NCBI RefSeq assembly: GCF_002775205.1
Contig: NC_036450.1
Location: 24,268,288-24,332,287, forward strand
Direction: 5' to 3'
DNA length: 64,000 bases
Origin: Xiphophorus maculatus
Taxonomy: Eukaryota > Chordata > Actinopteri > Cyprinodontiformes > Poeciliidae
Shown: piece after piece, positions 30,201 through 58,300 of the stretch
Layout: every line of letters begins with the position of its first letter
Numbering within the stretch: position 1 is the stretch's first letter
Program-made: the position numbers and the translations under genes
The notes under the pieces: generated by a model
The model's database searches: none
What the model saw: only the letters and a program-made list of their open reading frames with translations
Told to the model about the DNA's origin: nothing

Positions 30201-31329
30201 CTAAAGTCTGGTTTCGTGCGTTGCAACTACATCTATTTAATAGATTTTCTTGAGACTTTATGAAAAAAACTCAAAGAACTTAGGTTTGTATCATGAAAAG
30301 GTTTTGAAAAATTGAAGGGGCATGAATATTTTTGACAAGTTACTGTATATTAGGGGTGCCCAAGGTGAGGCGCGGGGGCTGTTTGCAGCCCTCTGAATGA
30401 TTGTGTGCGGCCTTGATTCAAACAGCGGAGCACACCAGGTCTAGTAAATGGACACTTTATTTTATCTTTTAGGGTGATAATTTCAGATAAATAAAATATT
30501 CTTAAAATAATAAGAAAATACTAGATACTTGATTGACCAAGTTCCTGCTTCATCTTCATTTCGGAGTCAATACAACTACAATACCCTGTAAATACATCTA
30601 AATGTTATTCTTTTGAATAAAACAAACTATCATCTCAGGCATATCGTTAGACCTTTTATAATAATAAATATGAAAGTTGTCAGTAGGTTTCCTTGAAAGT
30701 GCTGCTGATACGCAGATTCAATTTCAGTATTTAGTAAAAAAAACAAAAACTTTTTAAGTTATTATTTTTAAACCACATTGTGATTTATTGTATTTGAAAT
30801 GTGCTCTTAATTCATTAGTCAAATATTTTCCAGCCCTTTCATGACTTTAACTTGCATCCTTAAAAGACTCACTTGCATATTGATTTGTATACCTCAATAA
30901 TATTTTAATGAAGTAATTTCTCTTGGGTTACATTTTCAGTGACCACACTGTAGTAAGACTGGCGCAGTGAGTCGGTAGAACCAGACCAGCACGGTTCCCC
31001 CCTCGGTCAGTCTGCCGTGTTGCCGCGCTCTGTCACACCTGTCTGTGCTTCTTCTCCTTCTCCAGCCGGTCCATCCGCTCCAGCCGCAGCCTGTCCAGCT
31101 CCAGCCGCAGCTCCTCCATGTCCGGGCTCATGCTGCTGCGGCTCACCATCACCTCCAGGATCTCCAGCACCCGCACCACTTTGGGCATCAGCCGGGACAG
31201 AGCCTCGCAGCCGTACTGGTCTATGATCCGCTCGAACTCCTGGCCCACCACCGCCGCGATGTCGTAGACGTCCATCACCGTGAGGTCGGCGACGTTCTTC
31301 TCCAGAGCCGAGCCGAAGTCCTCCATCAT
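18208..31329 (-). CDS. rilpl1: RILP-like protein 1 (Rab effector / ciliary trafficking), spliced
   Basis: Family members control ciliary membrane content and bind phosphorylated Rab8/Rab10 through the RH2 domain. Exons in transcription order: 31329-31039, 27863-27716, 26028-25910, 24869-24630, 22295-22245, 22160-22006, 21691-21587, 18352-18208. All phases agree, giving 417 codons plus a stop; human RILPL1 is about 403. The first exon encodes RH1 (VYDIAAVVGQEFERIID). Exons 2-4 are long coiled coil (VVDKQRDEIRAKDREL, LMKINHDLRHK). Exon 6 carries the RH2 signature DPNRPRFTLQELRDVLHERN. The C-terminus has PESGIKRLFSFFSRDK and ends YTEQAQEALQHL. Two Met codons open the ORF; the first is used here. 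RILPL2 and SNRNP35, which lie nearby in mammals, are not seen in this window. Confidence 0.95.
18850..19285. repeat. Degenerate minisatellite of alternating AGTCAGAATT / AGTCTGAATT units
   Basis: Roughly 20-25-bp units built on GTCAGAATTCTGA with A-runs repeat many times with substitutions and indels. The unit is nearly palindromic. It lies in the last intron of rilpl1. Confidence 0.75.
20398..20825. mobile_element. Dispersed nonautonomous element, copy 3
   Basis: Left end GCTGCGTTAAAACCGCCAT and right end GTGTTTCTAGTGGAAACGGA are imperfect inverted repeats. The body has AATTCTGAAAATAAATTTAC, GCATCACGTGAGTCAACAGC and GAAGACGACAGGAAGTGG, as in copies 1 and 2. It lies in a rilpl1 intron. Confidence 0.75.
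21343..21361. repeat. (TG)n microsatellite
   Basis: About nine TG units in a rilpl1 intron, just 3' of the 21587-21691 exon in transcript order. Confidence 0.85.
22006..22295 (-). CDS. rilpl1: rilpl1 exons 5 and 6, linker and RH2 region
   Basis: Two exons, 22295-22245 (17 codons) and 22160-22006, are separated by an 84-bp intron. Both begin with GAGGCGATGTG, so their products start EAMCDED and EAMCEEE. The second continues into the Rab-binding RH2 core (FTLQELRDVLHERNEL). The shared opening suggests a small tandem duplication that created an extra linker exon. The 51-nt exon is symmetric and could be skipped without a frame change. Confidence 0.88.
23837..24352. mobile_element. MITE-like repeat in a rilpl1 intron
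   Basis: The left end contains TTAAAGCTGCAGGATTTCG and the right end GTTGCATGAGGCAGCTTTAA. These are inverted repeats over TTAAAGCTGC. The interior has AACCAATCAGAGCCAAGAGG and a related second copy of GACCCTCCTCCTGGCTGTGA. No ORF is supported. Confidence 0.65.
24995..25145 (-). mobile_element. Fragment of the GGCCTGTCACGATAA hAT-like family
   Basis: TTTTGCTGGACGATAAATTG and the following ATTATCATT/ATGATAATG stretch resemble the inner ends of the elements at 37740-38094, 57902-59688 and 60280-60612. The outer tips are missing. Confidence 0.55.
26353..26391. repeat. Long poly(T) tract
   Basis: A T-rich homopolymer tract, about 30 T at its longest, in a rilpl1 intron. It creates spurious Phe/Lys ORFs. 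Confidence 0.9.
29212..29385. mobile_element. Tc1-like terminal remnant
   Basis: GAAGCCAGAAGTTTACAGTC followed by TTAAATCAGACCAAAGTTTT is a Tc1-type end, similar to the end at about 5455-5580. It lies in rilpl1 intron 1, with no transposase left. Confidence 0.6.
29695..29717. repeat. (GA)n microsatellite
   Basis: About eleven GA units in rilpl1 intron 1. Confidence 0.85.
31039..31329 (-). CDS. rilpl1: rilpl1 exon 1, RH1 domain
   Basis: It starts with tandem ATGs at 31329 and 31326 and ends at the donor CAG|GTGTGA. The 97 codons include the RH1 helices (DLTVMDVYDIAAVVGQ, LMPKVVRVLEILEVM), a fold that in this family contacts motor or adaptor proteins. It runs into the first heptads of the coiled coil. 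Confidence 0.94.
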
Positions 31330-32131
31330 GTTTCGGCCCTCCCGGTTTCCTGCGCTTCCTTCGCCACAACAAACTTCCTTCCCCCCCGAGACGAGCAAGT
31401 CAGCCAAGTTCCACCCCGGGCGATTTCGCTTCACAACCAGGGCCGAAATGAACCATAGAGGAATCAAAAACACTAAAACTACCAATTATTCAACGTGTGA
31501 CGCTCATTACACGCTTCAAATCGAGTTGTTTGGGATGAAAATCGCAGTCGTCCCACTGCTGTCCCCTGGAAGCTAAAACACAGTCAATGATGGCAGCAGC
31601 CAAAGAGCAGCACTTCCGGTGAGGCGAATCAAAATAAAACTCAAAAAATTAAAATGCATTCAAATCAATTAATTTTATTTAGGATTACGGTGTGCATGTG
31701 TTTTGTTTTTATGTGTTGATACATACATTTTTATTTATGTTTACTCGCTACTGTTATTTATCCCCTGTTGGTTGATTGTCCCAATGTTTAAACCAAATCC
31801 AGATGTTGGTATTAACTAGTTTTGTGATTTAAACTCGACGGACCCAAAACGTGTGAGCACACGAACAGGAAATCAGCCAACACAGAATAATCAGAGTTTA
31901 CTTATTTTATTCTTTTTAGCGCTAAAAAGAAAGAGACGCTTGCCCTCACAGGCTTATGTGGATGTCAAGTGTAAAGGCCCGAATCTATACAGCATCTGCT
32001 CAAAAAGGGAAGACACATTGCTTATATCCTAAAGTCTGCCTCCTGGTCTGCTGATGTGTTACGTCACATGTATGGTGCGTGTCTGGAGTACACTTCTCAA
32101 CACTAGCAATAAAAAAAACAAAGTTATTCTA

Positions 32132-32508
32132 ATGGAAGCCAATTTCCGCCACTCTGATGAAAAAAACATTCAATGTCATAAGTATGACTCGATTATTTAA
32201 TGAGATAATAATGAGATAGCTACAAAAATCTCCTTATTATCCAATAATAATGAGATAACTAGTCATCATTATGATAGTATCTCATTATATGAGATAGCTA
32301 AGTCATAAATAGCATTAGATAGCATGATGAGATGCTATCTTCTTTCAGCATTTCATAACATTGAGATGCTATTAGGAGATAGCATCTCAATGTACTATCA
32401 AGGTCTCATTATTATGAGACGCTATCTCATAATAATTATGAGCTAACTCATAATTATGAGATAGGAGTTTTCTTTCTCTTCATCAGAGTGGCGGGAATGG
32501 GCTTCCAT
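32132..32508. mobile_element. MITE with about 30-bp terminal inverted repeats
   Basis: Left end ATGGAAGCCAATTTCCGCCA is matched by the reverse complement of the right end, ATGGAAGCCCATTCCCGCCA, and pairing continues through CTCTGATGAA. The interior is rich in self-complementary blocks such as ATCTCATAAT / ATTATGAGAT. No coding potential. It lies between the divergent rilpl1 and il15ra starts. Confidence 0.82.
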
Positions 32509-33344
32509 GATTCTACAAGTAGTTTTTCCGCACCATAATTTTTACTTCAGTAATGTAATTTGAAGAAACCTTACTCTTACTTGGTTACACTTACTGACTG
32601 CTCTACCCACCTTTAGTTACTTCAATAAACGAAGAAAAGCTTAGCCAAAAATACAGCAGATACATATAGTTTAAACATGTGAAACTTCTTGTTCGTACAC
32701 AAACGTCATAGCTCTAACATACTATCTACTGAGCACTATGCAGGTCACAGTAAATATTGTCAGTAGAAGCACTATGTTCTAAGTTATATACAATACCTAC
32801 TGTAAGTGTTGGTTTCAAAGGTTTACCGTCCAGACAGATAAATATAAAATATTTTGGGATAAAATTACGTATTTTAAACATTTTATGATGTCTGCTATTG
32901 CAACGTCTTGTCACAAGAGGGCGCTGTTACACTACTAATATCTGCAGTCATTCAATCGCGCTGCAATGGAGCCGATGAAGAAGGTGAGAAGTAAATATTT
33001 TTGGACTGTGCAACGTTATCCAATAATGTGTGACTTGGTAATTGATCTGAACTGGAATATGGTAATATTGAACTTGAGGCAAGTGTTTCATGGACATTAC
33101 AGAAACCGGAAAATGAAAGAATAAACAATTTTAATGAAACTATGGATACTTATGTTTGGACCAACAAAAAAAAAAAAAGCCTCATTGGAGAGTACAGGAA
33201 GTAAAAAGTGTGCTGGATTGTCCTGCTTTTACCATCATCTTTCACCTGAATACTAATGAGAACCACTCCAATAACCAAATCAATTCAAACTACAAATATG
33301 GCAGAGTGTTTTTTTTTCTTTAAAGGCGGGTCTTCGCAGCGAGT

Positions 33345-33356
33345 GAAAGTAAAAGT
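33345..33356 (+). promoter_or_regulatory. IRF/ISRE-like element upstream of il15ra
   Basis: gaaagtaaaagt, about 76 bp upstream of the il15ra ATG, is one mismatch from the GAAANNGAAA core bound by interferon regulatory factors. Mammalian IL15RA is interferon/IRF1-responsive, so the position makes sense. Binding itself is inferred. Confidence 0.45.
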
Positions 33357-33431
33357 AATACAGCAGGCTGCCGTGGAGGTATAAAGATCGCTGGCTGACG
33401 ATGGTCGTACAAGAACCATCCCAGCTGGAAG

Positions 33432-36400
33432 ATGGATCCTCATCGAATCTACACCTCTGTCTGTGCCGTGGTGGTGTGTCTTCTGGGAGCAACGCGTCTC
33501 TCCAGCGGTGGTAGGGTTAAAGTTTATCCAGCATACCTTTTAAAAAAATTTTTTAGAACAAAGGTCACCCATGCAGAACGCATATATACATATACGTTTA
33601 CATATAGACAATTCTAAAATTAATGTTTTTATCATTTATACTTACACTTTGTCAATTGGGTCATTAAAGGCTGTAATGGTCCTTATCTGTCCATTACTAC
33701 CTTAATGTTGGCTTAATGTTGAGCCACCATTACATGTTGGCTTAACATGTAATGTAAAAAATAAAATAAAATAAAAAAAACATACGTAGATATCTAGATA
33801 ACCTTCCATGTAAACTGAAAACATTTAATCTTCAATATAAAACTAGATTACAGGTTTCATATGAACTCTGGTTTAGAGGAAGTTTAAAGGAAGAACTGTC
33901 AGTTTCAGGTGCAAAAAAAAAAAAAAAAATTGTTGATGAAGTTTTTTTTTTGTCCGAACTGGTTTTTACCGGGTCATAAAATGATTTATTTCTCATCTCA
34001 AGCGTGCAACAACACACCTGAACTTCTGCACACAAAAAAGTATGTAAAAACTAAGATGTTATGATCCGGCAGCTTGTAGAAGCACCTGCTTAAGATTGAT
34101 TGGTTTCTGTCTGATTTTTCTCAGTCAGAAACCGAGTTTGGTCGACTCTTTGCTGTTTTATACATCCTGCAGTCTCGCATCATTTCGATGATTTTTAGGT
34201 CTGAAGTCTTACTTCAGTCTTTTGACACACTAGATTTCCCCTCAGACATTTTGTCGTAGATTTGCTGCTGTGTTTTGAGTCACTGTCCTGCCGACGGCCC
34301 AGATTGTCGGATAGATGGCATCAAATTCGACTTCAGAATAACTTTGGTTTACTGGTCGAGTAAACCACAAGTAAGCCAAAGATTTTCCAAAGATAACAAC
34401 TACGACTTGCAAGATGTGGCGACTTTATTTTTGTAGCACCTTCAGCTAAAAGCAACTCAAAACACTTAGACAAAAATAAAGTTAGAAACGACATGCATCA
34501 ATAAAAATCACATCAGTGAAAAAAAAAATCTTTCTTTGAACTTAAAATAAAATGCTCTAATTTGTTACAGCTAATAATTCAGTTCTTAATAAGTCTGAAA
34601 TCAGAATTATAGCTAATAGAATTAGCCATAAGAAATTCAAGTAATTGCTTTTTAAGTTGGCTCCAGAGCAGGCACGTTCACAGGGGGGTGGGAGGAGGGG
34701 GGCTTGAGCCCCTGCCCTTTTTATCCCTGATGCCCCTAGTGCCCTTTTTGAGTTTTTTTTTTAAATAAATATTTTTTTTATTTTTAAGCTGTATGTCAGA
34801 AGGCCTGTTTGTGCCCCTCAGCAATAATATTTAGCTAAATATAATAATTTAGTAAAAATAAACTAGTCTGGCTGCCCTCAGTCTAATAATGACTCTCAGA
34901 GCCTCCATGTTGTTCAGACTCCGGGTCCAAGGTGAGGAGGAGGAGGATCTGTGTCCTCTAACTATCAAATTATGGGCAAGAATATTTTTTCATACACAGT
35001 TTTGTGAATAAAAACGTAGGTCTGATGTTGACGTTAGAAAAACAGTTTCTATTTATATTTTCATAATCATCCTTGCAATAGCGGGACGAAACTCGCCTCA
35101 CCACTAAACACAGAAATGTTTCGAATCCAGAGAAACGTCTGACTTTAACTTCATCATTCTGCTAAAAGCCCGGTTCACTACAGGCAGACTGAGTCGGTCC
35201 ACCGACAGATAGAAAGAATATCTGTCTTTATATCAGACATCCTGATATAAGACACGGTACCGACTGTCACCGTGAGTCGCGACGCAGCTCAAAGCCCCAG
35301 TACCACCTGGTACCACCTGGTACCACCTGCTCTCTGTTCACTCTGTTTCTCCTTAACGTTTCTACCAGGCGGGTTAAAGCCGCTGCTGACGGGATCTGGG
35401 CTGGAGGTTCTGGGCTGTAAATAGAAATTACTGCAGAACCTCAAGTGTTAAAGGAAGATTCGGCCCAAAGCATTTAGAGTCACAAAATAAACATCAGAGA
35501 AAATATTGTAGCAACAATTAGAACCGCAGCAAAAAGCCAAACATGCCACAATGAAATGAATCAAAATGTCCCCAAAGCATCGGAGGACTGACATAGGGGC
35601 CACCGGGGGATTCCAGGTGGATTCCAGGTGGATTCCAGGTAGATTCCAGAGATGCGCATCACAGCAGTTGTCCTTCCAGGGGCGGCCCAAGGTAATATGG
35701 GGCCTTAGTAGAACCTCAGCATCACTAACATGTTTAAATATTGATAAAGTGAATCTGTGAGAGGGAGACCAGGTTTATTGGCAGAGTTTAAAATCAATCA
35801 CTGATTATTGGTTATTTTACTGTGATGTATTTGTGAACAAACCCAATTCAAACACAAAGATTACACCATATTGTAGCCATGGTAACACAACAATCAAACT
35901 ATCAAGATGATTCTTTAGACTTTTACAAAGTAAACTTCCTAATTAAATCCTAAATGTACTATTTATTTTTCTCAGCTGAATGCATTAAATAAAATGTAAT
36001 AACATTGTCAATCTCTATAAATGATGCTACAGGTTTAGATCTATGATCAATGTTACAATAAACCATTTCTAGGGGCCCCTGAATGTCTGGAAGCCCCTGA
36101 ATGTCTGGAGGCCCCTGAATGGCCCCTACCAGCAGCTACTGAGTTTTCTTTGCCTTGATATCTCAGTCTTATAATTCTAGGTCTCAGAGGTTTAACATAT
36201 AGTTTTAACCCCTTTGAGTTTTTTGATCTATAAATCAGTCTGCAGCCAGGTTGTTCTAGAGGTTAAATAGATATTATTAGGGATTAATTAGTAAAATGGC
36301 AGCAAATTAGCTTATTTCATAACTTCATAACCTTTGACCTTCTCTCCTCTGGTCTGTTGAACAGCTACAGTCTCAGATCAGCTCAGATCTCCAGGACTGT

Positions 36401-39400
36401 CAGCAGCAGAAACAGAAACGTTTTACCTGTTGGGGAAAATATAGACTAGATTTGCTTTGCATTGTCCTTCATGATGGCAACGATACAGTAGGATCCAATT
36501 AGATTCTTGATCAATATGGGTTGTTGCTATGTTGTTGTACAGAGTTTTTGTTCAATGTGCCCCTTTTTTAAATCTGAGCCCCTGCCCCTCCATAGGTCTC
36601 TGCACGGCCCTGCTCCAGAGGTCCATTCAGTAGTTTTGAGCACTTTTTAACAGGACTCTCATTTTTCTTTTAGAAAAACTTGGTTTTGTAGTGTTTTTGA
36701 AATTTCTCAGTCGAATTTTCTCTTAAATGTTTTCCACTTATGAAAGATTTTTCTCACCGAGGAATGGTGGATGTGAAATCCTTTGGAAGTGGTTTTCTAA
36801 CGCTTCCCAGATTGCTCAGCTGCAACAATTGCTGTTACTGATATCTTTCTTCTTTGTCATTGTCAAAACATTTGTCTTAGCTCCAGTACTGAAACTCCTG
36901 CTCTTAGAAAGGTGATTACCCTTACAGATGGCCGGTTAAGCTAAACATTTGTTCTTGATAAACTCTAGATCATTCTGACTTTGTCATAACATGTACAGAT
37001 AGAACTGAAGAAACACGTAACTTTCTTTTTGACTTTATTGTGTAAAGAGCGAAAAAGGGGGGATAATTAAAATGACGTCAGCAGTGAAGTAATGCTAGAA
37101 AATTTTAATGTGTGTTTTTATTTCAGACAACTGCAAATGTCCAGCGATTCCTCCAAAAGATTTAACTGTACGAAAAGACGGATGCTTCCAGATCAACAGT
37201 ACATTTCGCTACCAGTGTACTACAGGCTATACGAGAAAACCTGGAACGTCAGGCCTCATCAAGTGTCAGGAGAAGAATGGTGTTATACAGTGGACCGAAT
37301 CTCTATTCAAGTGTATAAGTAAGATCCTTTTATTTCTCTTTCATCACTTTCAGAGGGACCTTTATCATGTTAGCGCCAAGAGGTTTATTTTCAAAGACGG
37401 AGATCTGAGTCGATTCTGAAAACTTTGGGTGGCCACTGAATATCTGAATCAATGTTTGTGAGAAGAAACCAAAACCAGCTGAGGTGGAAAAACAACAGAA
37501 ACGAAATCAAGTGAGATGAAGAGCAAAAAACCCCCCCCAAAAAACAAGATATTCCTGAAGCTATAGGTCAAGACGTACAAACTAGACATGGAAATTGAAA
37601 AAGATGAGGCAGCGAAGAAGAAGAAGAAGCCAGAAGTGAAACCGCAACTAAACCTGCAGACCAGAACAGGACCATCTGCTATTTTCAAATGGGGGAAAAC
37701 AAAAACATGATTCCATGCCACAGAAATCAGACGACGCAGCAGTTTAAGACATTTTGTTTATTAATCTGACAGTTCAAAACTTTGGAGGTGAAATTCTGTT
37801 TAAAGCCTCCATCGTATTTATTGTTTCGGTTGTGTGTGGTTTTTTTATTACAGTTTTATTTATTGTTTTTGGTCCTCATGTTTTATTTTGGATATTTAAA
37901 GTATCTTCCAGTTCCAGTGTTTAGAGAGCTTTACAAGATGTATAATTATTGGTCTTTGAGAGCGCAAACTTGCATTACGATGCCATTATCAGTGTATTAC
38001 CTGAAAATGTTCCCAAAACAACAATATTATCGTTTATCGCAATATTTACTGGGACAATTTATCGTCCGTCAAAAGTTGTTATTGTGACAGGCCTAGCCTG
38101 TGCAAACAGGAGTGACTGCCATGTTGTTGAGAACCCAAATGGCAGCAGACGCAGGATAGAGATAGTATTGAAAGATCAACTAGACAATCTTAAAAAGCCT
38201 GATCTGCCAATTTTTGGCAATACTGATTTTTTTTGTCTGAAATATTGCAGCAAAGTTGCTAAGTTAGCTGAATTAGCGAGGTGTCAGTTGTTAACGTCAC
38301 TGCTCCATCAGTCGGTCTGCTCTCACTGTAGAGCAAAATGTGACAGTCGGTTTTCACACCTTTGCGTAGGTAGATAATATTGATTAGATTGGCGTCCCAA
38401 GTTCAGCTGTCATCTTGCCTGCAATAAATAACTTCCTTGGCTTCTTCACCCATCGCCTATGAATGGCGGTTAGTTTGTTCCAGAAACTAAAGCTAACAGG
38501 TGAGATAGAAGAGAATCTGTACAACAGAGATCAATGTCTTTGATGGAACTGATGATACCGTTTATCATTTATTTACCGATTATATCTGCTGTGTTTTTGT
38601 ATTTCTGCAAGATGTGTTTGTCCATTAAAGATGTTTCCAGATAATACTTAGATGTTTCCGCAGCTGTGATAGTAGGAGAGACCTGAAGACATGTTGGGTA
38701 AAATGCTTATCCTGGAAATGGTCTTGAAGGACTGACATGTGTGGAATGTAGTTTGTACCCTTGCTTGACTCTGCACCCATGACTGACTGACAAAGAAGAA
38801 CTAGAAGTTTTTCCTGAAATCCTTATTGGAGGGATAGTTCATGAGGTGGGGGTAGGGATTGTCTCTGTGGTCCATCTGGCAATAGAGATCAGAACAGTTT
38901 GGGTGGGTCTTTTCCTTGCTGTGATTATGTAACGATGTGATGTGACTGCGTTCAGTGAGACGGGTCTTCGAACGCTTTTGCCTTCGCATGAAGAAACTTA
39001 AAGACAAAAAAACAACAACAAAAGCAGATTGCTATGGGAATTTCATTTATCAAAGAATGAGAATCTGTTTCAATAGCAAGAGAAAGATTCATCTTTGAGG
39101 CAACTTTTTCACTAAGTCCCTGCTGTTGAGATGAAAATTATTAGTTGTTTTTTTTTCTGTAGCTGGATAAATAACTGATTACTGGGGATCTGTTCTCTAC
39201 AAACCCCAAAGCAAAAAGATAGAACCATTTTCTAATCATTTATTGAGGTATTTTGCGCCATATTGCAACATTCACCAATATTATACTATGTCGCTTGCTT
39301 TTCAAATACCATGCTGCCCTCAGTGGAATGTATAGCAGAGGTGTCAAACTCCAGTCCTGGAGAGCCGCTGTCCTGCAGTTTTTAGATGTGCCACAGCTAA

Positions 39401-42400
39401 TGACCTAATTAGTCTACTCAGGTGTGGTGCAGCAGAAGCACATCTAAAAGTTGCAGGACAGCGGCCCTTGAGGACTGGAGTTTGACACCTGTGGTACATA
39501 GTGTTAATTAAATTAGGCAGCATTCACTTTGGCCACTAATACATGTACTTTTTACATTTCTTCACTATCAGATCCAACAATTGGAAATGATTTACACGTA
39601 TTCACAGAATATGATTCACACAGAATGCTCCTTTTCAAAGTAATTGCAAATGTCTGAGTTAATGTGCATCATGTCAATAATTTATTCTTTAAAGGTTCTT
39701 AAAACAGTGGGAGCATAAACCACTGTGAAGGTTTTTTGAAGTGAGAGTTGTTTCAGGGTGGCATTTGTCTTGGGCTAAGATTAGATTCACCTAATCTGGA
39801 TTTATTCTAAACAGATTACTGCTGGCAAATTGTGAACTGCTTCTAACAAAGTCTTATTTTGAAAACTCAAAACCATCTCTTTCATATTTTATGTTGATTA
39901 ACCCTCTGTGCTCTTTTTTTTTGTCTGTTTCAGCTGACCCAAACTATCAGCCACCGCCAACCACCACCACGGGTAGGAAACTGCTTTTCTTTTCTTTAAG
40001 TCTGCATGATTTCTGTCTGTAGCTGTTGATGTGCAAGCACCTTGATTTGAGGCACAAACAAGTGCACAGATTCCTAGATGGAGCCACTTCAGGTTTCACA
40101 CTTCAGGTTGCAACAAGACAAACTACAAACCATCTTTACAGTGAAACACTTTTGTGTAACTGTTTTATTTTTTGGTCCTATACTGTAGAAGAGCATTCTT
40201 TGCTGTAGGTGTTATTTCAAACATATTTCTTTTTTAAAATTTGTAACAATATTCAACATCAACACGTTTAAAAAAAAGCCTCTGTGCAAAATGGGGTTAA
40301 AACATGAACAGCTCCCTGAGAGTTTTTTTTTTGGTTTTTTTCATCGCGTCCTCCCTGCAATGAGGGCAGTGTGGTTCCCACACTTTGGGAACCACTGACT
40401 TAATGTTACCGTCTTTAAACTTGTTTGTTTCCTAAAGATTGTATTGACCTTCACTGTCCTTAGACAGGAACGTAGGTAACGAGAGAGAGGGGGAAAGGCA
40501 TGTGGAAAACGTCACTAGGCTGGGATTAGAAATTCTGACGTCTGCATCCAGGACTACGTCAGTCGCCTCTATATGTGGGTTATGTTTTGCTCCTGCGCCA
40601 CCACAGCAGCCCAGGCCTTTAAACTTTTGACTCCACATGTCCAACTGTTTGGCGTTTCAGTACTTTTTACACAGCTTAATGTCTTAACAAGGAGCTTTAA
40701 CAGCAATATTCACCAGCAAGAGACATTGAGGGTTTTTACGTTTTCCATAAATTTCTCTCAAATGCCAAATATTCTTAACTTTCTGTTTACAGTTTATGTT
40801 TCACAGGGGAACATTGGTGGCCCAATCCCCTCCTACCTCTTTTTGCTTTTGTAAATAACAGCAAATGTCTGAGTTAATGTGCAAAGATGCCAATCGTTTA
40901 AGGTTTAAAGATTTTTTTTAAATAATATGAGCATAAACAACTTCAATGATGTTGAGATTGGAGTTGTTTTTTTGATGATATTTGTCTTGAACCTTCTTAG
41001 ACTAATTGTTAGCTTCACCTTCCTGAACTTGACATTGAAAATTGAAAACTTTCTAGTTGATGAACACAGTGTTCTTCCTTTTTTTTGTTTCAGCTAACCT
41101 GGAATATCGGCCACACCCAACGATTAGCATGGGTAAAAAACACATTTTCTTTGTTTATGTACTAAGGAAGCAACATGACTTATTGACGTTAGAATGAAGA
41201 TTTCTATCTGATAAGGTGCGATCGCTTTGCTTTGGGGACAGACAGCTGCATCCTATTTCTGGTTGCTAAGTTACCCTGCGTGAATTAGTTACCGTGGGAA
41301 TTATATATTTGGAAAATGGTCTGGATTGCCTATGTACAATACTCACAGAAAGTTAGGAATATCTGGCTTTATGTTCAAATTGCAGGATGAATCTCAAATG
41401 TAATGTAACATTTTACAGATCAGCTTAATGTGACATTCTTTAAACTTTTTAACGTATGTCTCTAACTGTTCAGCGTTTCACTACATTTTGCACACCTTGC
41501 TGTTGCTTCAATACGCTTTTTGTGAATTGACATAGCATGCTTCTACTTAAATGCCCCACTATAATTGGATATTCTCATTGCAGTGCTAGATCATTTTGAC
41601 TTTGTCATAACATGTACAGATAGAACTGAAGAAACACGTAACTTTCTTTTTGACTTTATTGTGTAAAGAGCGAAAAAGGGGGGATAATTAAAATGACGTC
41701 AGCAGTGAAGTAATGCTAGAAAATTTTAATGTGTGTTTTTATTTCAGACAACTGCAAATGTCCAGCGATTCCTCCAAAAGATTTAACTGTACGAAAAGAC
41801 GGATGCTTCCAGATCAACAGTACATTTCGCTACCAGTGTACTACAGGCTATACGAGAAAACCCGGAACGTCAGGCCTCATCAAGTGTCAGGAGAAGAATG
41901 GTGTTTTACAGTGGACCAAATCTCTATTCAAGTGTATAAGTAAGATCCTTTTATTTCTCTTTCATCTCTTTAAGAGGGACCTTTATCATGTTAGCGCCAA
42001 GAGATTTATTTTCAAAGACGGAGATCTGAGTCGATTCTGAAAACTTTGGGTGGCCACTGAATATCTGAATCAATGTTTGTGAGAAGAAACCAAAACCAGC
42101 TGAGGTGGAAAAACAACAGAAACGAAATCAAGAGAGATGAAAAGCACCCTGCCACCCCCTCTAATCTTGGGCTAAGATTAGATTCACCTAATCTGGATTT
42201 ATTCTAAACAGATTACTGCTGGCAAATTGTGAACTGCTTTTAACAAAGTCTTATTTTGAAAACTCAAAACCATCTCTTTCATATTTTATGTTGATTAACC
42301 CTCTGTGCTCTTTTTTTTGTCTGTTTCAGCTGACCCAAACTATCATCCACCACCAACCACCACCACGGGTAGGAAACTGCTTTTCTTTTCTTTAAGTCTG

Positions 42401-45400
42401 CATGATTTCTGTCTGTCGCTGTTGATGTGCAAGCACCTTGATTTGAGGCACAAACAAGTGCACAGATTCCTAGATGGAGCCTATTTCTGTTTGCTAAGTC
42501 ACTGTAAATGAAGATAGTCTCATTAGTGAAGACAATTACATAATAGAAAGTATTCTGGATCCAACCACTGGTTGTTGCATGTGTACTCAGTATTCAGAAA
42601 AAGCTTTGGATATTTGGCTTCTGGGTGGAAATTCAGGATGAACCTAAAATCCACTGTAACCATTCCAGGTTGACTTAATGCAGTGGTTCCCAAAGATTTT
42701 CTTCTGCCCCCCCATGGATTACAATCACCCAAAAAAGAAAAAAAAAATTAACTGGGCACACACATCGTTCAACCAGACGTGAACCTATACACATATTTTG
42801 TTTTCAAAATATTTCACACTTCAGGTTGCAACAAGACAAACTACAAACCATCTTTACAGTGACACACTTTTGTGTAACAGTTTTATTTTTTGGTCCTATA
42901 CTGTAGAAGAGCATTCTTTGCTGTAGGTGTTATTTCAAACATATTTCTTTTTTAAAATTTGTAACAATATTCAACATCAACACGTTTAAAAAAAAGCCTC
43001 TGTGCAAAATGGGGTTAAAACATGAACAGCTCCCTGAGAGTTTTTTTTTGGTTTTTTTCATCGCGTCCTCCCTGCAATGAGGGCAGTGTGGTTCCCACAC
43101 TTTGGGAACCACTGACTTAATGTTACCGTCTTTAAACTTGTTTGTTTCCTAAAGATTGTATTGACCTTCACTGTCCTTAGACAGGAACGTAGGTTACGAG
43201 AGAGAGGGGGAAAGGCATGTGGAAAACGTCACTAGGCTGGGATTAGAAATTCTGACGTCTGCATCCAGGACTACGTCAGTCGCCTCTATATGTGGGTTAT
43301 GTTTTGCCCCTGCGCCACCACAGCAGCCCAGGCCTTCTTTAAACTTTTGACTCCACATGATCAGCTTAATGTGACATTCTTTAAACTTTTTAATGTATGT
43401 CTCTAACTGTTCAGTGTTTCACTATATTTTGCACACCTTGCTGTTGCTTCAGTACGCTATTTGTGAATTGACATAGCATGCTTCTACCAAAATTGGATAT
43501 TCTCATTGCGGTGTGCATGAATGTCACCCGAAAGCCAAATATCCATAACCTTTTGAGAGTAGTGTATTTTATTGATAATCTCTTAATGATTATCCATCTT
43601 AATTTTTTGGCCACACATGTTTTAAAAGCCCCACCAGGACCTTCCTCCACACTCCAGAGTGTCAGGACCTCCACCTCTGAGCCTTCAGTATCTCCCAACA
43701 CGGAGCGAAGAGCTCTGGGTAAGAACAATGAAATCCAATCAGTAAAACCACAACAAAGGTCCAGCCTTTGTTGTGTTCTCTAAGAAATAACATGTGCACT
43801 AATGAAGAAAAGAAAGAAAGTCATTTGTAATCTGAGTGAGGCAGATTCGTGGCAAACTTTGCTTATCTAGAAAGCTAATTTTCAGTTAATTTTTTAGATG
43901 TTTTTTAATACCTCTGCGATTTCATCGTTAACTGCGAGGGTCAGAGACAGAAAGTCTGTGTCAAAACCAAGATTCAAGCTTACAGCTACACAGCGTGCAC
44001 CTTTTGCAATGTTTCTTCATAGCAAAACAATAAAATAAAAAGACAAAGCAGTCAGGCAGTCACTAAAAATAATTATGAAACTGAACTTCTAATTAAAGCA
44101 GCTGAAGTTGCACCTTAAAGAAATGTGACAAGAAGGTCGTTTGTGTTGGGTTTTTATGTTTGCGACATCATGTGTGAACAGAAAACGGTGCCGAATGACT
44201 CATGTGCCTCTCCGTTTCACTGGAACATAACAAAACGACCTGCTGTCTCTGAGAGGAGTTTTCATCTGGTTTCACTTGGCTAGACAAAGAGTGTTGATGT
44301 GTTAAAAAGGCTGTTTGGTGTCTGTACCATCAAACAGAAAAACCAGACTGACATTTAGCAACGTTAAAGCTGTTTTGAGTTTTGACCTTTTTTTTTTTTT
44401 CCTTTTCTTTTTTTCACAAATAGCAATGGATCATCAGCATACAGTGAAACCTCGTAATTTGCGTTTATCCTGCTGTTGTCATTGGTTCTGCGGATTTGCT
44501 TAGCTGATTTTCCATGACATTTGTATGACCTGATGAGCTGTGAAGTTGATGGATGAAGTGTTTTTTTATTATACTTTCCATGCGGTAAGCTCGGGCCAAA
44601 AACTGGCCAAATCAGAATCTGTTTGCACAAACAAGAGAAAAAAAAAGCAAAAAAATAACGTCTCACATTTTCTGCAACATATTCAAAAAACTTGTAAAGT
44701 TTGTATACAAGTTTTTTGTACTTGTATACAAAAAACAAATGTTTCAGAAGTCTTCTAGAATTAAATTGTTTTTTTTAATGTCGTTCTAGAAACTTTAAGT
44801 TGTGTCCAGTTTGTGATTAATGATGATCTGATCATCTGATACTTGATGGCTGCTGTTGCTGTGCAACGTGGCACAAGCAGGGTTCTGGTGGGACAATTAC
44901 TTTTTCACTGGCCAGGTTCCTTAAATAGATTTTCACTCTTAATAAAAGGAAAATCTTTTTTGTTGTTGTTGTTTTTTTTGCAGCATTTACTCAGGTTAAA
45001 TTTATCTGACATCAAAATTAGTTCAATTACCTGAATCTTTTTTAAAAAAAAAAGGTGAAACACCCAAAATGCTTTAAGAGGGCAGAGACTTTTTGTTACG
45101 CCACTTTTTAACACTCTGTCAGGTTTTGATATATTGCAATAATATGTGGAACAAATGGGTGAAGATGTTTGTGTTGAAAATAACTTGAAGAATAAATAAG
45201 CAAAAGGCTGTAATTATAGCAGAAATAATATAAAAATAAAATAAAATATAAAATACAAAAGAAACAATTATAGCAGATAAACAGATGGTTCCACAAAAAA
45301 CATAACAGCTGATGCTACCTTCTTTTCCTGTTTGCAGGACCTTCCTCCACCCTCCAGAGCGTCAGGACCTCCACCCTCCAGAGCGTCAGAACCTCCACCC

Positions 45401-47895
45401 TCCAGAGCGTCAGAACCTCCACCCTCCAGAGCGTCAGGACCTCCACCCTCCAGAGCGTCAGGACCTCCACCCTCCAGAGCGTCAGGACCTCCACCCTCCA
45501 GAACGTCAGAACCTCCACCTCTGAGCCTTCAGCATCTGCCAACACGGAGCGAAGAGCTCTGGGTAAGAACAATGAAATCCAAAAGAAAAAGAAAGAAAGT
45601 CATTTGAGGCCTGAGTGTGGCAGGTCCGTGGCAAACTTCGCTTAGTTTCTAAATGGAATATCTCTGCGATTTTTTTTTTTTTCATTAGCTGCGAGGAAGA
45701 GAGAAAGAAAGTCGGTGTCCAAATCGAGATTAAAGCTTACAGCTAAACGGCATGTACCGTTTGAGACGTTTCTTTAAAACAAAAAGAAATAAAAGACAAA
45801 GTAGTCACACAGTGACAATCACTAATTATGAAACTTGGTGTATTTGAGATAAATTGGTTAATGAATTTAAGTCTTGCACTTCTCTGTTGCTAAGGCAAAT
45901 TGGGAAGTATATAGGTAAATAAAATGGTTGCTTGGTTACGTTATAAATATATATTGTGTTGAATCACTGGATATATTTAGCCATCTATTTATAGCACGTG
46001 TGTTGCTGCAAAAGATAAAGTGCAAACTACAGCGAGTTTAGCAAGGAGGTTTTGTAAGGTCGACCCTCTTCATAACTTATATTGCCAGAAAACAACCACA
46101 AAGAATTGGCCAAAACTGAAACGCAAATGAAACCCAAAATTCAAAGATTGTAACATAATTCTACGTATGTATATACGGGGCCTCCCTTCTGAAGCTGCTA
46201 CCCCCGCGACCCGACCTCGGATAAGCGGAAGAAGATGGATGGATGGATGGATATATAAATCTACTGGTGATTCCTGTAGATTTATACCAACTTTTAACAA
46301 CCCTCTTTTTGTCAGTCGGACATAAGAGGGCTCTCTGGACATTCCTCTTGGCACAATCTCCCCGTGTCGTCCAGAGTCCTCTTCTGTTCAGCTCACATCG
46401 AAGGTTTTCTGTCACACTAATGTCTTGAGGAATGAGAGAGCCATGGAAGGAGGTCAGTTTTGTGTCTGGTCATGTTTTTTGATCAAAAACCTGCTGACGG
46501 ACCCAACGACGACCTCCAGGTTGAACCTCAACAGGTTCGTCGCGCCACACATTCCAACATGGGAGTTTTAGAAAAGACAGCAGGCCCTCAGCGACACAGA
46601 GCACTTGCTGTGATAAACAACATATATGAGGTGTTCTTCCACATGCTTTGGTTTTGTTTCACCCCGCATGGAGTTTTATGACATTATGTCATTTTATGAC
46701 CCGGTCGTTGAGACGTACTCCCGTCACGCCGCTTCAGCATTTCTGGCCAACCCTCGCCACAAACGCTGAAAGAACTTGTAACAAGCTTGTCTGAACATGA
46801 AAAAACTGAGGGAATTTTGCGGGACACCGAGTCAAGCTGTGTCCTGGATGCGTGTAAGTCACTTTTGATAGACTGCCCAGCGTATATATCCTGGGATTAA
46901 GGATGTTCACAACGTTCTGCTCCGTTGGGGACGGGCTCGTTGCTTTTGCGGTGAGGTGGCTGACATGGTTTCTCTTTTACTTATTTGTTGTTGTTTTTTT
47001 TTGGTCAAATTTAAACCCTTTACTGCAGGAATTTCTTCACAATTATATTAGAAAACGCTGTAAAACGCTTTGAAAATTCAGCAGAGATTGTTCATTTGAA
47101 AATAACACATACATGAAATACATACCGAGGGAGTTAACATTCCAAATAGCAAAAATATGGCATCACCTGACCAAAAGGTAACAGCAAAGAGCCAGTTTTG
47201 TGTCACCTTTTTTATTAATAGAATATGGATAAATAATCATTACTAATATACATACATTAACTGACAATAATATACAAACAACGATGGTCAACTTACCATC
47301 CGGAACTGAATGTTTATCATACCATCAGTTTCACTTTCAGGCATCCAGCATGCCGAGTTGAGTAAAGCATAAGTATTTGGTTGTGATGCAGAATTTTTCC
47401 AACATGTCCAAAAAGGAATCTTGGTTTGTATTTAAATGATATACGGTGTGTTACAGTGTTAAGTACTCATTAAGGCGAAACGACAATGTAACCTTTGAGT
47501 ACACACTTTTTGAACTGCGCTGCAGAATCTATTCCATTGTAGCAATTAGCAGATTTGTAATTTTACTGGATAATGTCTCATGGGACGGGATTGACGCTAG
47601 AGAAATCATTTTAGCCGACTGTGTTTTTGTTTCCCCGTTAGGAGGAGAACGCAGAACAGTTTGCATCAGTTTGATTGGAGTGATTCTATTCTTCATGGTG
47701 TGCGGTATCATCTTCTTCCTACATCGACAGTAAGTTGGTCAACAGAGCTTTCTCATCCTTCTCCGATATCAAAGTTTTAATGCTTGTACTGACAAAAACA
47801 AACCCCCAAAAAACGCCTTTCTGTTCTTATCTTTGAGGAGAAACAAGCCGTTTCCTCCAAGAGACCCAGAGGAACTGGAAGCTATGAAATGCTGA
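33432..47895 (+). CDS. il15ra: Interleukin-15 receptor alpha-like protein with two sushi domains
   Basis: A type I membrane receptor that in vertebrates binds IL-15 through its sushi domain and presents it in trans to lymphocytes. Ten proposed coding exons: 33432-33510 (signal peptide, VCAVVVCLLGA core), 37127-37318 (sushi A), 39934-39972, 41094-41132, 41748-41939 (sushi B), 42330-42368, 43638-43718, 45338-45562, 47642-47729 (membrane span, ISLIGVILFFMVCGIIFFL), 47838-47895 (short tail). Lengths sum to 1032 nt, 343 codons plus a stop, in frame throughout. Family evidence: GYTRKPGTSG and WTESLFKC match the IL15RA sushi pattern (human GFKRKAGTSS, WTTPSLKC, from memory), and the tail EELEAMKC resembles human VEMEAMEA. 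The fbh1 neighbour matches human 10p15. Human IL15RA has one sushi domain. IL2RA has two but they are diverged; here the two are nearly identical. Alternative splicing could use only one. Confidence 0.88.
34669..36612. mobile_element. Nonautonomous hAT-like transposon, 1944 bp, in il15ra intron 1
   Basis: It is flanked by a perfect 8-bp duplication, ctccagag, at 34661-34668 and 36613-36620. The ends are inverted: CAGGCACGTTCACAG on the left against CAGGGCCGTGCAGAG for the reverse complement of the right, followed by shared GGGGCTTGAGCCCCTGCCC-like sequence. An 8-bp duplication and CAGG tips fit the hAT superfamily. No transposase ORF survives. Inside are short tandem arrays at 35310-35340, 35600-35650 and 36070-36130. 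Confidence 0.92.
35600..35650. repeat. 11-bp tandem repeat (GGATTCCAGGT)
   Basis: About four units with one variant, inside the hAT-like element. An unrelated 11-bp tandem (ACCACCTGGT plus one base) lies at about 35307-35335. Confidence 0.85.
36967..37505. repeat. Duplicated block A, copy 1 (contains sushi A)
   Basis: About 540 bp almost identical to 41587-42134. It covers roughly 160 bp of upstream intron, the sushi exon and about 185 bp of downstream intron. Identity stops near AACGAAATCAAG at both copies. Confidence 0.92.
37127..37318 (+). CDS. il15ra: il15ra exon 2, sushi domain A
   Basis: 64 codons, phase 1 to phase 1. It carries six cysteines (NCKCP, DGCF, RYQC, IKC, LFKC), a glycosylation sequon NST, and the IL15RA-like GYTRKPGTSG loop. 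The acceptor is tatttcag and the donor GTAAGA. It is nearly identical to the exon at 41748-41939. Confidence 0.92.
37740..38094. mobile_element. Fragment of the GGCCTGTCACGATAA hAT-like family
   Basis: It ends in TTGTTATTGTGACAGGCCTA and aligns along its length with 60280-60612, sharing TCGGTTGTGTGTGGTTT, TCTTCCAGTTCCAGTGTT and GGGACAATTTATCGTCC. The left terminus is not found. It lies in the il15ra intron after sushi A. Confidence 0.72.
39335..39497. mobile_element. Short palindromic MITE, hAT-like ends
   Basis: Left GGTGTCAAACTCCAGTCCT pairs exactly with the right end AGGACTGGAGTTTGACACC. The complementarity extends inward through GCCGCTGTCCTGCA and TTAGATGTG. The flanks ATGTATAG and GTACATAG may be a worn 8-bp duplication. 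A relative lies at 61569-61750. Confidence 0.85.
39934..39972 (+). CDS. il15ra: il15ra stalk exon, copy 1
   Basis: 13 codons, phase 1-1, encoding ADPNYQPPPTTTT-like sequence (the first residue depends on the upstream split codon). Pro/Thr-rich, suited to O-glycosylation. Copies 2 and 3 are at 41094 and 42330. Confidence 0.82.
40433..40610 (-). mobile_element. Degenerate tRNA-SINE copy in an il15ra intron
   Basis: Shares order and spacing with the SINEs at 12480 and 62006 (TAGACAGGAACGTAGG, GGGGGAAAGGCATGTGG, ATCCAGGACTACGTCAG, TATATGTGGGTTATG, GCGCCACCACAGCA). The duplicate at 43147-43330 was copied with block C. Confidence 0.68.
41094..41132 (+). CDS. il15ra: il15ra stalk exon, copy 2 (oldest duplicate)
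   Basis: 13 codons, phase 1-1, giving NLEYRPHPTISM. Same spacing and splice structure as the other two, but much more diverged. The preceding intron (about 40858-41090) still aligns with 39645-39930, so it is a true duplicate. Acceptor gtttcag, donor GTAAAA. Confidence 0.72.
41587..42134. repeat. Duplicated block A, copy 2 (contains sushi B)
   Basis: Partner of 36967-37505. It begins directly after the end of another duplicated segment (41418-41584), so the junction at about 41585 is a rearrangement breakpoint. Confidence 0.92.
41748..41939 (+). CDS. il15ra: il15ra exon 5, sushi domain B (recent duplicate of A)
   Basis: Same length, phase and splice sites as sushi A. Only a few substitutions are seen over 192 nt. 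At protein level I see GVLQWTKSLFKC against GVIQWTESLFKC (I to L, E to K); a CCT/CCC change is silent. The open frame and intact splice sites argue that it is a functional exon. Confidence 0.9.
42163..43359. repeat. Duplicated blocks B and C, copy 2
   Basis: Partner of 39768-40639 with about 330 bp of extra DNA at 42481-42811. The start of that extra DNA (TATTTCTGTTTGCTAAG) resembles 41251 onwards in the unit 2 intron. This suggests it is ancestral sequence deleted from the other copy. Confidence 0.85.
42330..42368 (+). CDS. il15ra: il15ra stalk exon, copy 3
   Basis: 13 codons, phase 1-1, DPNYHPPPTTTT. It differs from copy 1 by Q to H and a silent change. It lies inside the second copy of a roughly 320-bp duplicated block. 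Confidence 0.82.
43359..43512. repeat. Duplicated block D, copy 2
   Basis: Matches 41418-41584: ATCAGCTTAATGTGACATTC through GACATAGCATGCTTCTAC, then ATTGGATATTCTCATTGC after a small indel. It links the intron upstream of sushi B to the intron upstream of the stalk exon at 43638. Confidence 0.82.
43638..43718 (+). CDS. il15ra: il15ra Ser/Thr stalk exon, unexpanded copy
   Basis: 27 codons, phase 1-1, PSSTLQSVRTSTSEPSVS then NTERRALG. It contains a single TLQSVRTS unit. The acceptor is placed at CACCAG by homology to the next exon. An in-frame alternative 9 nt upstream (43629) is also possible. The polypyrimidine tract is weak, so inclusion may be variable. Confidence 0.72.
45338..45562 (+). 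CDS. il15ra: il15ra Ser/Thr stalk exon with seven coding 24-bp repeats
   Basis: 75 codons, phase 1-1. Same start and end as the 43638 exon, but the TLQSVRTS unit occurs seven times in tandem (24-bp period, 45350 onwards), with only point differences such as QNV in the last unit. It adds about 48 residues of Ser/Thr-rich extracellular stalk. Copy number is likely to vary between individuals. Confidence 0.88.
46185..46260. mobile_element. Non-LTR/SINE 3' tail with (ATGG)n
   Basis: CTGCTACCCCCGCGACCCG, then GGATAAGCGGAAGAAGATGG and four GATG units. This is a very common type of retroposon tail in teleosts. The body is missing. It lies in the il15ra intron before the transmembrane exon. Confidence 0.7.
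47642..47895 (+). CDS. il15ra: il15ra transmembrane and cytoplasmic exons
   Basis: 47642-47729 encodes GERRTVC followed by a hydrophobic span (ISLIGVILFFMVCGIIFFL) and HRQ. 47838-47895 encodes RNKPFPPRDPEELEAMKC and a stop at 47893-47895. The tail is short with no visible signalling motif, as in IL15RA. A second acceptor 3 nt downstream would change the frame and is less likely. Confidence 0.85.
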
Positions 47896-55300: not shown

Positions 55301-58300
55301 TGTTGGGAAAGTTTCTTACCTGTATTTGATTATCTTTATCCATAGATCGTCATCGTCAAGCTCAACCTTTCAACACTGTTACGCGTGTAAAGCTGATGTG
55401 GACTCATGGCAACTTTTAGAGAAATTATTCAACCCCGTTACAAAAACGGTGATTTTGTTACGGGGTTGAACGTTGGACTGTTCTTAAGCCGGCCGGAGAG
55501 TTCAACCCCGTTACAGTCTGGTCAACTTTTACACTGGGTTTAACCCCATAACGTGATACATTGTTATGATTTTTTAAATAATAACAGCAAATATTACACT
55601 AATATTTGTTGGACTGTATGCAAAGTTTAAAGAATATATATTCAAAAACAAAACAAAAAAGAAGCCTGATTTAATGTTTATTTTAAAATATATTTTATGG
55701 TATGTTATGAAAAGCGTTTTTACATCAAGTTGCCATGTTCTACTTATCAGTCTAATTGTTATGATTCAGAATCAAATAAAATATACGTACAATTAGTTAT
55801 TTTAATGAAGGGACAGGTGATCTCATAGGAACTGGAAGAATTAGTTTAATTATGTTATGGAGTTATACTCATAGAGGAATCAAAGTGTCCCGTTACGGGG
55901 TTGAATTTAAAGCAACCATAGTAACAATGAAATTTGTATTGTATTGTATGTTTGGGATTTGATGCATAAAGTGGGGAGTCATATTTTCCTGTAGGTTCAA
56001 AGAGTCCTTCAATAGATTCTCTGTTCCAAAACACCATTTTTTGTGGTATTTTTTTAAGTAACCTGAGAAAAACCAAAATGCACTGAATTCAGAGAATCAC
56101 CCAGCTGTCTACAGAGAGATAGATATTGAAGAGTACAACATATAGATAGAGAACTATCCAGCTAGCTGTATAGGTAGGTACCTAGCAAGCTAACTAGCTG
56201 GACAGCTAGCTAGCTATAATTTTTTTATTTTTTATAACAAGATACTATGGATCATGTCCATCATACATCTGGGTTTCTTCTCGGCTATGTTCAGAGACCA
56301 AAACTCCTCATTATTTTTAAACTGACAGCAGATGCCTAAAGATGCTTTGTGAAAACCTTTACTAGTTTAGAACCATCATGACACGATGAACGTTGAGTAA
56401 CAGGAAGAAATGGGGATGTAAAAGTGGATGTTTGAACAGATTGTTCTACTTTGTGAGGACTGTGAGCAGACAGTGAGAGTAATGAATGTGCTGTGTGATC
56501 ATATCTCACCCCAGCCACAGTGAGAATGCGGAGGATGTTTTTAGTTATAACCAGGGAGGACATGGCGCGAGTCACCGCCACATACAGCAGGTTCCACTCA
56601 TCGTCTGGAATCTTAGCTGCGATAAGAGATAAGAGGTAAGCAGCACAAGCCCAGTCAGTAGGACAGCTCATCATGAAATGTTTATCTTTTCCAAAAAGAG
56701 TGGTGGTGTGTGGGGGGGAAAGGAAACGTACAAAAACAGAAGTCTTGAATGCGGCACAGGTTGTGGCCGGAAGCGGGAACGGTGGCGAAGTCGTCGGTGA
56801 CGATCACAGTGTCGAACTCCAGACCTTTGGCCTTGTGGACAGTTCCAACAATAAAGTCTGGGTACAGAGAAAATAAGGGTTAAGACTATTAATCGATTAT
56901 TGAAATAATCGTCAACTAATTTAGTAATCGATTAATCGCTTACTGGAAGTATACAGACTAGAAAACATGCCATTTGCTGAAAGAACAACACATATTGTTA
57001 CTTCATTCTAGACAATTAAATGTTTATTTTCTTACTTAAAGGAATCAAGTTATTCATTTTCTTGGATTTTCTTTTTTTTTTCTTTTAAATGTTGTATAAA
57101 ATAAGCTTAAGTGGTTAAAAGAAAGGTCTGCAGTGTGCCTTTAAAAAAAATCTGATTAATCGTCAGAATAACTGATTACTAAAATAATCGTTAGTTTCAG
57201 TATTAAAATAATTGCTAAAACAATGACGGAAAAATGGACAGAAGGTAGTTCTGAACATTTTTGATAGGTTGCTTTTTGTTTCTGTAAGGCTGAGTGGAAA
57301 AACAAAAACTGCACGCCGTCCTTCAGGTGATATGCCGTGACGATAAAAACCTCCTACAGGGGTTCCACGTCACAAAACATGCAACCATCTAAAACCCACA
57401 GCTTCCTTTAACCAGACCACGACTTTTTATCGTCTAATATCAGCTTTAACCTGTAATCACAACTTAAGTAAATCAAGCTGCAGGATGGAAAAAATGTCGC
57501 AAAGCGGCTACTTTTCTGAAGAAAACACCCGCCGTCGTCGCCGTCCTCTCCTTGTTGGAGTTGACGCATACCTGCTCGGTGGAAGTCGGCCTCGGAGCAC
57601 GCCTTGAGTCGGGCCACCAGCTCCGGGATGCGCTCTCTGTAATGCTCCACGATGCTGAGCTTCCCGTCCAGCTCCTTGTCTTCGGTTTGGATGATGTACT
57701 TCTTAAAGGTCAAGTAGGGGTTCTCCTTGCTTGAGAAAAACGTCCGGATGAGGGGGTCTTTGATGGCTGACAGGGCATTAGAAGTCAATCAATCAATCAA
57801 ATTTTATTTGTATAGCACATTTCAGCAGCAAGGCATTTCAAAGTGCTTTACATCATATCAAACACAGAAACACAATGCAACATAGAATCAACAATCAAAA
57901 CTAGGCCTGTCACGATAACAAATTTTGCTGAACGATTAATTGTCTCAAAAATTATTGCGATAAACGATAATATTGTTTGAAGACTTTTTTAACACTGATG
58001 TAATGGAAATGACGTAATAATGCATGCGATTTCCTGCCAAAGATGCACTTTATTTTCAAAAGAATATTTAACACTGGAACTGATGAACAAAATAAACAAA
58101 ACAACCAAAAACAAAAATAAAATGGATTCTCAGTCTCCATTAACAAAGAACGCCCTTGAAAAAAAAACTAAAATAAAGCCAAAGCGGAAATAAATACTGC
58201 ATTCAACCAAAAGAGTGCAGATTATGAAGTCTGTATATTATGTTGCCCTTCAGTAATAATTAGATTTAAATAGAGAAGATGGGCACATCAACTTCCTGAT

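Follow-up and report, generated by a model that had tools for sequence, protein, structure and literature searches.

Head-to-tail duplication within a fish IL15RA-family gene and the prospect of a receptor chain with two near-identical sushi modules

Background

What receptor would be made by an IL15RA-family gene in which the sushi exon occurs twice? The teleost IL-15R alpha chains described in excerpts of PMC6070626 carry a single sushi domain, whereas the gene considered here can, on the model given below, encode two near-identical ones. It lies in a 64-kb stretch of fish DNA (the window; C8:24268288-24332287) from a genome of 704.3 Mb in 101 contigs. A sequence-only reading of the window had described an IL-15 receptor alpha gene with a duplicated sushi exon, and had proposed that the fish either can make a chain with two equivalent cytokine-binding modules or uses the two exons alternatively. 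The answer depends on what the gene is, how far the duplication extends, how old it is, and which transcripts its splice sites and reading frames would favor.

Results

Gene model and neighbors

The gene model was built from reading frames, splice sites and a paralogue on C17, and its exons are predictions throughout (Table 1). It occupies the plus strand from a signal peptide beginning at 33432 to a stop codon at 47895, between an RH1-domain gene and FBH1, both on the minus strand; the latter is recognized from a minus-strand ORF at 56339-56803 that resembles F-box DNA helicase 1 (E=2.2e-6). A scan of 31300-37120 gives two candidates for exon 1, and the one listed was preferred for its recurrence in the C17 paralogue, at 60% identity over 40 aa. 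Two separate genes were rejected as the leading reading of the locus: the signal exon shared with the paralogue lies upstream, within that scanned interval, and between the copies there is one weak candidate, reading into linker exon L1A.

A single signal-peptide exon and a single transmembrane exon are common to both sushi copies in this model. Every exon between them is a multiple of 3 in length and in phase 1-1, and therefore any combination of them stays in frame. Open frames result for a chain with both sushi exons (343 aa including the possible stalk exon ST1, 316 aa without it), with A only (239 aa) and with B only (226 aa). The model thus bears out the proposal that a two-sushi chain can be encoded here, and the gene departs from the ordinary one-sushi IL-15R alpha plan in having two intact sushi exons.

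Table 1. Predicted exons, duplication units and inserted element, in window coordinates
Feature	Position	Strand	Remarks
Exon 1, start codon and signal peptide MDPHRIYTSVCAVVVCLLGATRLSSG	33432..33510	+	ends in phase 1
Duplication unit U1	36965..41585	+	self-comparison and alignments
Sushi exon A, 192 nt, phase 1-1	37127..37318	+	Pfam Sushi score just below cut-off; IL-15R alpha is best PDB match
Linker exon L1A, 39 nt, phase 1-1	39934..39972	+	similar linker exon in C17 paralogue
Linker exon L2A, 39 nt, phase 1-1	41094..41132	+	older diverged repeat of L1; weak donor (score -0.63)
Duplication unit U2, abutting U1	41586..43513	+	self-comparison and alignments
Sushi exon B, 192 nt, phase 1-1	41748..41939	+	I54L and E58K relative to A
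Linker exon L1B, 39 nt, phase 1-1	42330..42368	+	relative to L1A, one Q>H and one silent change
Element in U2, 434 bp, presumed hAT-like	42681..43114	+	8-bp repeat ACTTAATG on both flanks (42673-43122)
Possible stalk exon ST1, 81 nt, phase 1-1	43638..43718	+	acceptor judged poor by eye
Stalk exon ST2, 225 nt, phase 1-1	45338..45562	+	holds a 24-nt repeat, 7.3 copies
Transmembrane exon	47642..47729	+	47% identical over 32 aa to C17 paralogue
Short cytoplasmic tail and stop codon	47838..47895	+	match in C17 paralogue

The paralogue is a second gene of the IL15RA family in this genome, at C17:17457937-17471180. Its exon plan (signal peptide, sushi exon of 195 nt, linker of 39 nt, transmembrane exon of 88 nt, tail) matches that of the window gene, and the one sushi exon found in it is 48% identical to copy B. 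It adjoins a G-patch gene resembling RBM17. With the window gene beside FBH1 and the C17 gene beside this RBM17-like gene, the gene order of the mammalian (tetrapod) cluster appears to be split over C8 and C17.

Identity of the gene and its ligand face

The assignment to IL15RA holds up. The best PDB match of the window sushi is 2psm, an IL-15R alpha chain (E=1.4e-7); CD55 ranks second (1.4e-5), further IL-15R alpha chains are interspersed with CD55 chains at E of about 1e-5, and IL2RA comes last (3.6). The Pfam Sushi model gives copy B 22.2 bits, above its curated cut-off of 20.7, and copy A 20.4 bits, 0.3 under it. A protein search of the genome with the sushi domain, which scores only the best candidates, has nine entries among the matches listed at E<=1: the two window copies, the C17 paralogue (E=1.3e-10) and six weak ones (E of at least 0.058). 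Each copy (37126-37320 and 41747-41941) has six cysteines, the usual four plus C3 and C20; these two are also present in the C17 paralogue, which suggests that they may form a third disulfide.

In the human contact region, R24 and K34 are both replaced by T in both copies. The aligned residues R26, R35, K36, S40, L42 and I64, listed as IL-15 contacts in parts of PMC6767322 and PMC10005041, are retained in both. Like teleost IL15RA, the window gene combines a sushi domain with a signal peptide, a Ser/Thr-rich stalk, one membrane span and a short tail, the signal, transmembrane and tail exons being in frame, and it has FBH1 adjoining; together with the sushi match and the retained contacts, this supports the view that the gene is IL15RA-like by descent.

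Comparison of the two sushi exons

Both sushi exons are present where the sequence-only reading had placed them, with intact splice sites that the two have in common, an AG acceptor and the donor TATAA/gtaagatc. Three substitutions in 192 bases distinguish them: a silent one, ATA>TTA (I54L) and GAA>AAA (E58K), the last two at positions that align with human A54 and T58. The shared intron sequence described earlier is there as well, since in the gap-free block that contains the exons (36965-37525 / 41586-42146) only 1 of 162 upstream and 5 of 207 downstream bases differ. E58K could be explained by a routine transition because copy A has CpG at the E58 codon, where copy B has CpA; the change from CpG to CpA is a common kind of mutation. 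Two further statements about E58K concern its place. It was said to stand next to the last cysteine, but residue 58 sits five residues before that cysteine (63). The proposed effect near the ligand face of the family is not supported, human positions 54 and 58 both being absent from the contacts named in the excerpted text of PMC6767322 and PMC10005041.

Extent of the duplication

The duplicated interval is real, and its extent had been set too small: it runs to 43513 and takes in a second linker exon (L1B). Self-comparison and alignments resolve it into two head-to-tail units, U1 and U2, which align in four blocks. The first is 561 bp long with 9 mismatches (98.4% identical, far above chance), the second and third have 4 differences in 318 columns and 4 in 545 aligned bases, and in the last (41418-41585 / 43359-43513) 8 of 155 aligned bases differ and there is a 13-bp gap. 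A dispersed repeat was ruled out as the source, as a genome-wide DNA search gives two matches for the sushi exon and two for the tail block, all at this locus.

The alignment of the units is broken by large gaps, of about 2.2, 0.8 and 0.3 kb, that have arisen after the duplication. U2 has no counterpart of U1 37526-39767 or of about 40640-41417, and the second of these gaps accounts for its having no L2 exon. Conversely, U1 is without about 0.3 kb that is present in U2, including the 5' part of the 434-bp element, which we take from its ends to be hAT-like. Since U1 has this element without its 5' part, the element is probably older than the duplication and was partly lost from U1 afterwards. 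An older repeat, 72% alike, joins 39631-39772 with 40846-40989, which places a doubling of the L1/L2 linker region ahead of the recent duplication.

Divergence and constraint

Over the first three blocks U1 and U2 differ in 17 of 1424 columns, a single gap included, or 1.2% (95% interval 0.7-1.9). Three Xiphophorus species are reported to differ from each other by 1 single-nucleotide change per 52 to 69 bp (PMC4705583, in part), so that U1 and U2 have diverged roughly as much as those species, if the fish belongs to this genus. The last block is more divergent than the other three (p=0.0018), and therefore the history was not one clean event; the excess would fit either gene conversion acting on an older duplication or a block that mutates fast.

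Between the copies, the coding sequence of the sushi and L1 exons has 3 amino-acid and 2 silent changes. Differences are no rarer in exons than in introns (5/231 coding against 12/1193 in other sequence, Fisher p=0.18), and these counts, with few changes for a test, give no sign of constraint or positive selection since the duplication. By computation, 5.7% of single changes in a sushi exon create a stop, and 13% create a stop or lose a cysteine. Because the exons differ no less than the introns and so few changes create stops, intact frames are to be expected by chance and do not show that both exons are used.

Discussion

A chain with two sushi modules

We lean toward a real and recent head-to-tail duplication inside the gene, with default splicing that probably yields a two-sushi chain. 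The duplication, within a single IL15RA-family gene, would have taken in the sushi exon together with the introns on either side and the linker exon or exons downstream. Since the acceptors and donors are identical and the flanks near-identical, both sushi exons would be expected to be spliced in by default. The predicted chain would then run from signal peptide through sushi A, linker, sushi B and linker to a Ser/Thr-rich stalk and membrane anchor, with 29 residues, rich in Pro and Thr, as a loose tether separating the closest cysteines of A and B. In mammals most of the affinity for IL-15 is said to reside in the single sushi domain (PMC10705774, in part), so each module should bind alone. 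The usual arginine face of each would bind an IL-15-type cytokine, and a single chain could thereby carry and trans-present as many as two of them; one-sushi transcripts, also in frame, are likely as minor forms. More tentative, and less likely than not, is the further step to a natural bivalent IL-15R alpha whose two equal modules would take two cytokines at once, in an independent and very young repeat of the step proposed to have led to IL2RA, the acquisition of a second sushi domain.

The same duplication could instead be real and yet be represented mainly by transcripts with one sushi exon (through skipping, an alternative cassette, or a transcript end or start between the copies), giving a single-sushi protein, A or B. 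We think this somewhat unlikely. Both one-sushi models are open, and the length with A only equals that of grouper IL-15R alpha (239 aa, with a 26-aa signal peptide, according to part of PMC10705774). Between the copies lie AATAAA/ATTAAA motifs at 38423, 38624 and 39507 and a signal-like candidate start (39891-39972) that reads into L1A, but such motifs and weak start candidates are common by chance. The splice sites of A and B are, moreover, identical, and linker exons separate the copies, unlike the usual neighboring pair of mutually exclusive exons. With linkers between the copies and all internal exons in phase, nothing seen forces either/or splicing, and the alternative use of the two exons put forward by the sequence-only reading finds no support in the exon model, although it may still occur.

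Two more explanations bear on the repeat itself. A false join of two alleles of a single-sushi locus, end to end, can mimic a tandem repeat, and 1.2% is within possible allelic divergence; this artefact is nonetheless quite improbable, for the window contains 0 N, the copies differ by the three large gaps and by 5% in the last block, and alleles would be expected to be near-identical if the DNA comes from the inbred platyfish line (104 generations of sib mating in the account given in part of PMC4705583). An older duplication homogenized by gene conversion would make the two-sushi plan several times older than 1.2% implies, and the plan might then occur in relatives. The higher divergence of the last block points that way, but it is a single short AT-rich block that may just mutate faster, and we regard this history as unlikely. 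It concerns age, and it can hold together with the two-sushi chain favored here.

Relation to known receptors

The window copies are 97% identical and have linker exons between them, whereas IL2RA is a tight two-domain unit whose sushi domains are highly diverged from each other; the identity of the window copies therefore points to a doubling that took place independently of the one in IL2RA and after it. Domains 1 and 2 of IL2RA are described as diverged and strand-swapped (PMC3894449, in part). Like the window model, tetrapod IL2RA (CD25) has two sushi domains per chain, and it belongs to the same family and cluster; its proposed origin is an IL-15R alpha-like gene to which a second sushi domain was added (PMC9465101, in part). 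The same portion of that paper gives fish one receptor of the IL15RA/IL2RA kind at the locus, IL2RA having arisen in tetrapods with the second sushi domain, and among its references is one in which both receptors are listed for ray-finned fish. A bona fide two-sushi IL2RA is reported, in excerpts of PMC6070626, as not found in teleosts, and a search of open-licence papers, mostly at listing level, met no IL15RA with a doubled sushi.

A young duplication of the sushi within the gene would allow an IL2RA-like step to be watched near its start, in the splicing of both exons, in two-ligand binding and in their divergence. A natural bivalent trans-presenting chain, if true, would be of interest to cytokine engineers; if the second sushi exon is skipped or neutral, this is an ordinary young duplication.

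Ligand genes, relatives and stalk repeats

A search for ligand genes with the Pfam IL15 profile gave no matches here and none in any of 14 control genomes either. The search of viral_contigs for relatives returned 13 pattern stretches, none of them confirmed. In the stalk, the 24-nt repeat of ST2 occupies 45344-45519 with 97% matches and encodes about seven STLQSVRT-like units, and its length is likely to vary between fish. ST1 is a 94% repeat of part of ST2, and this stalk exon is thus an older duplicate.
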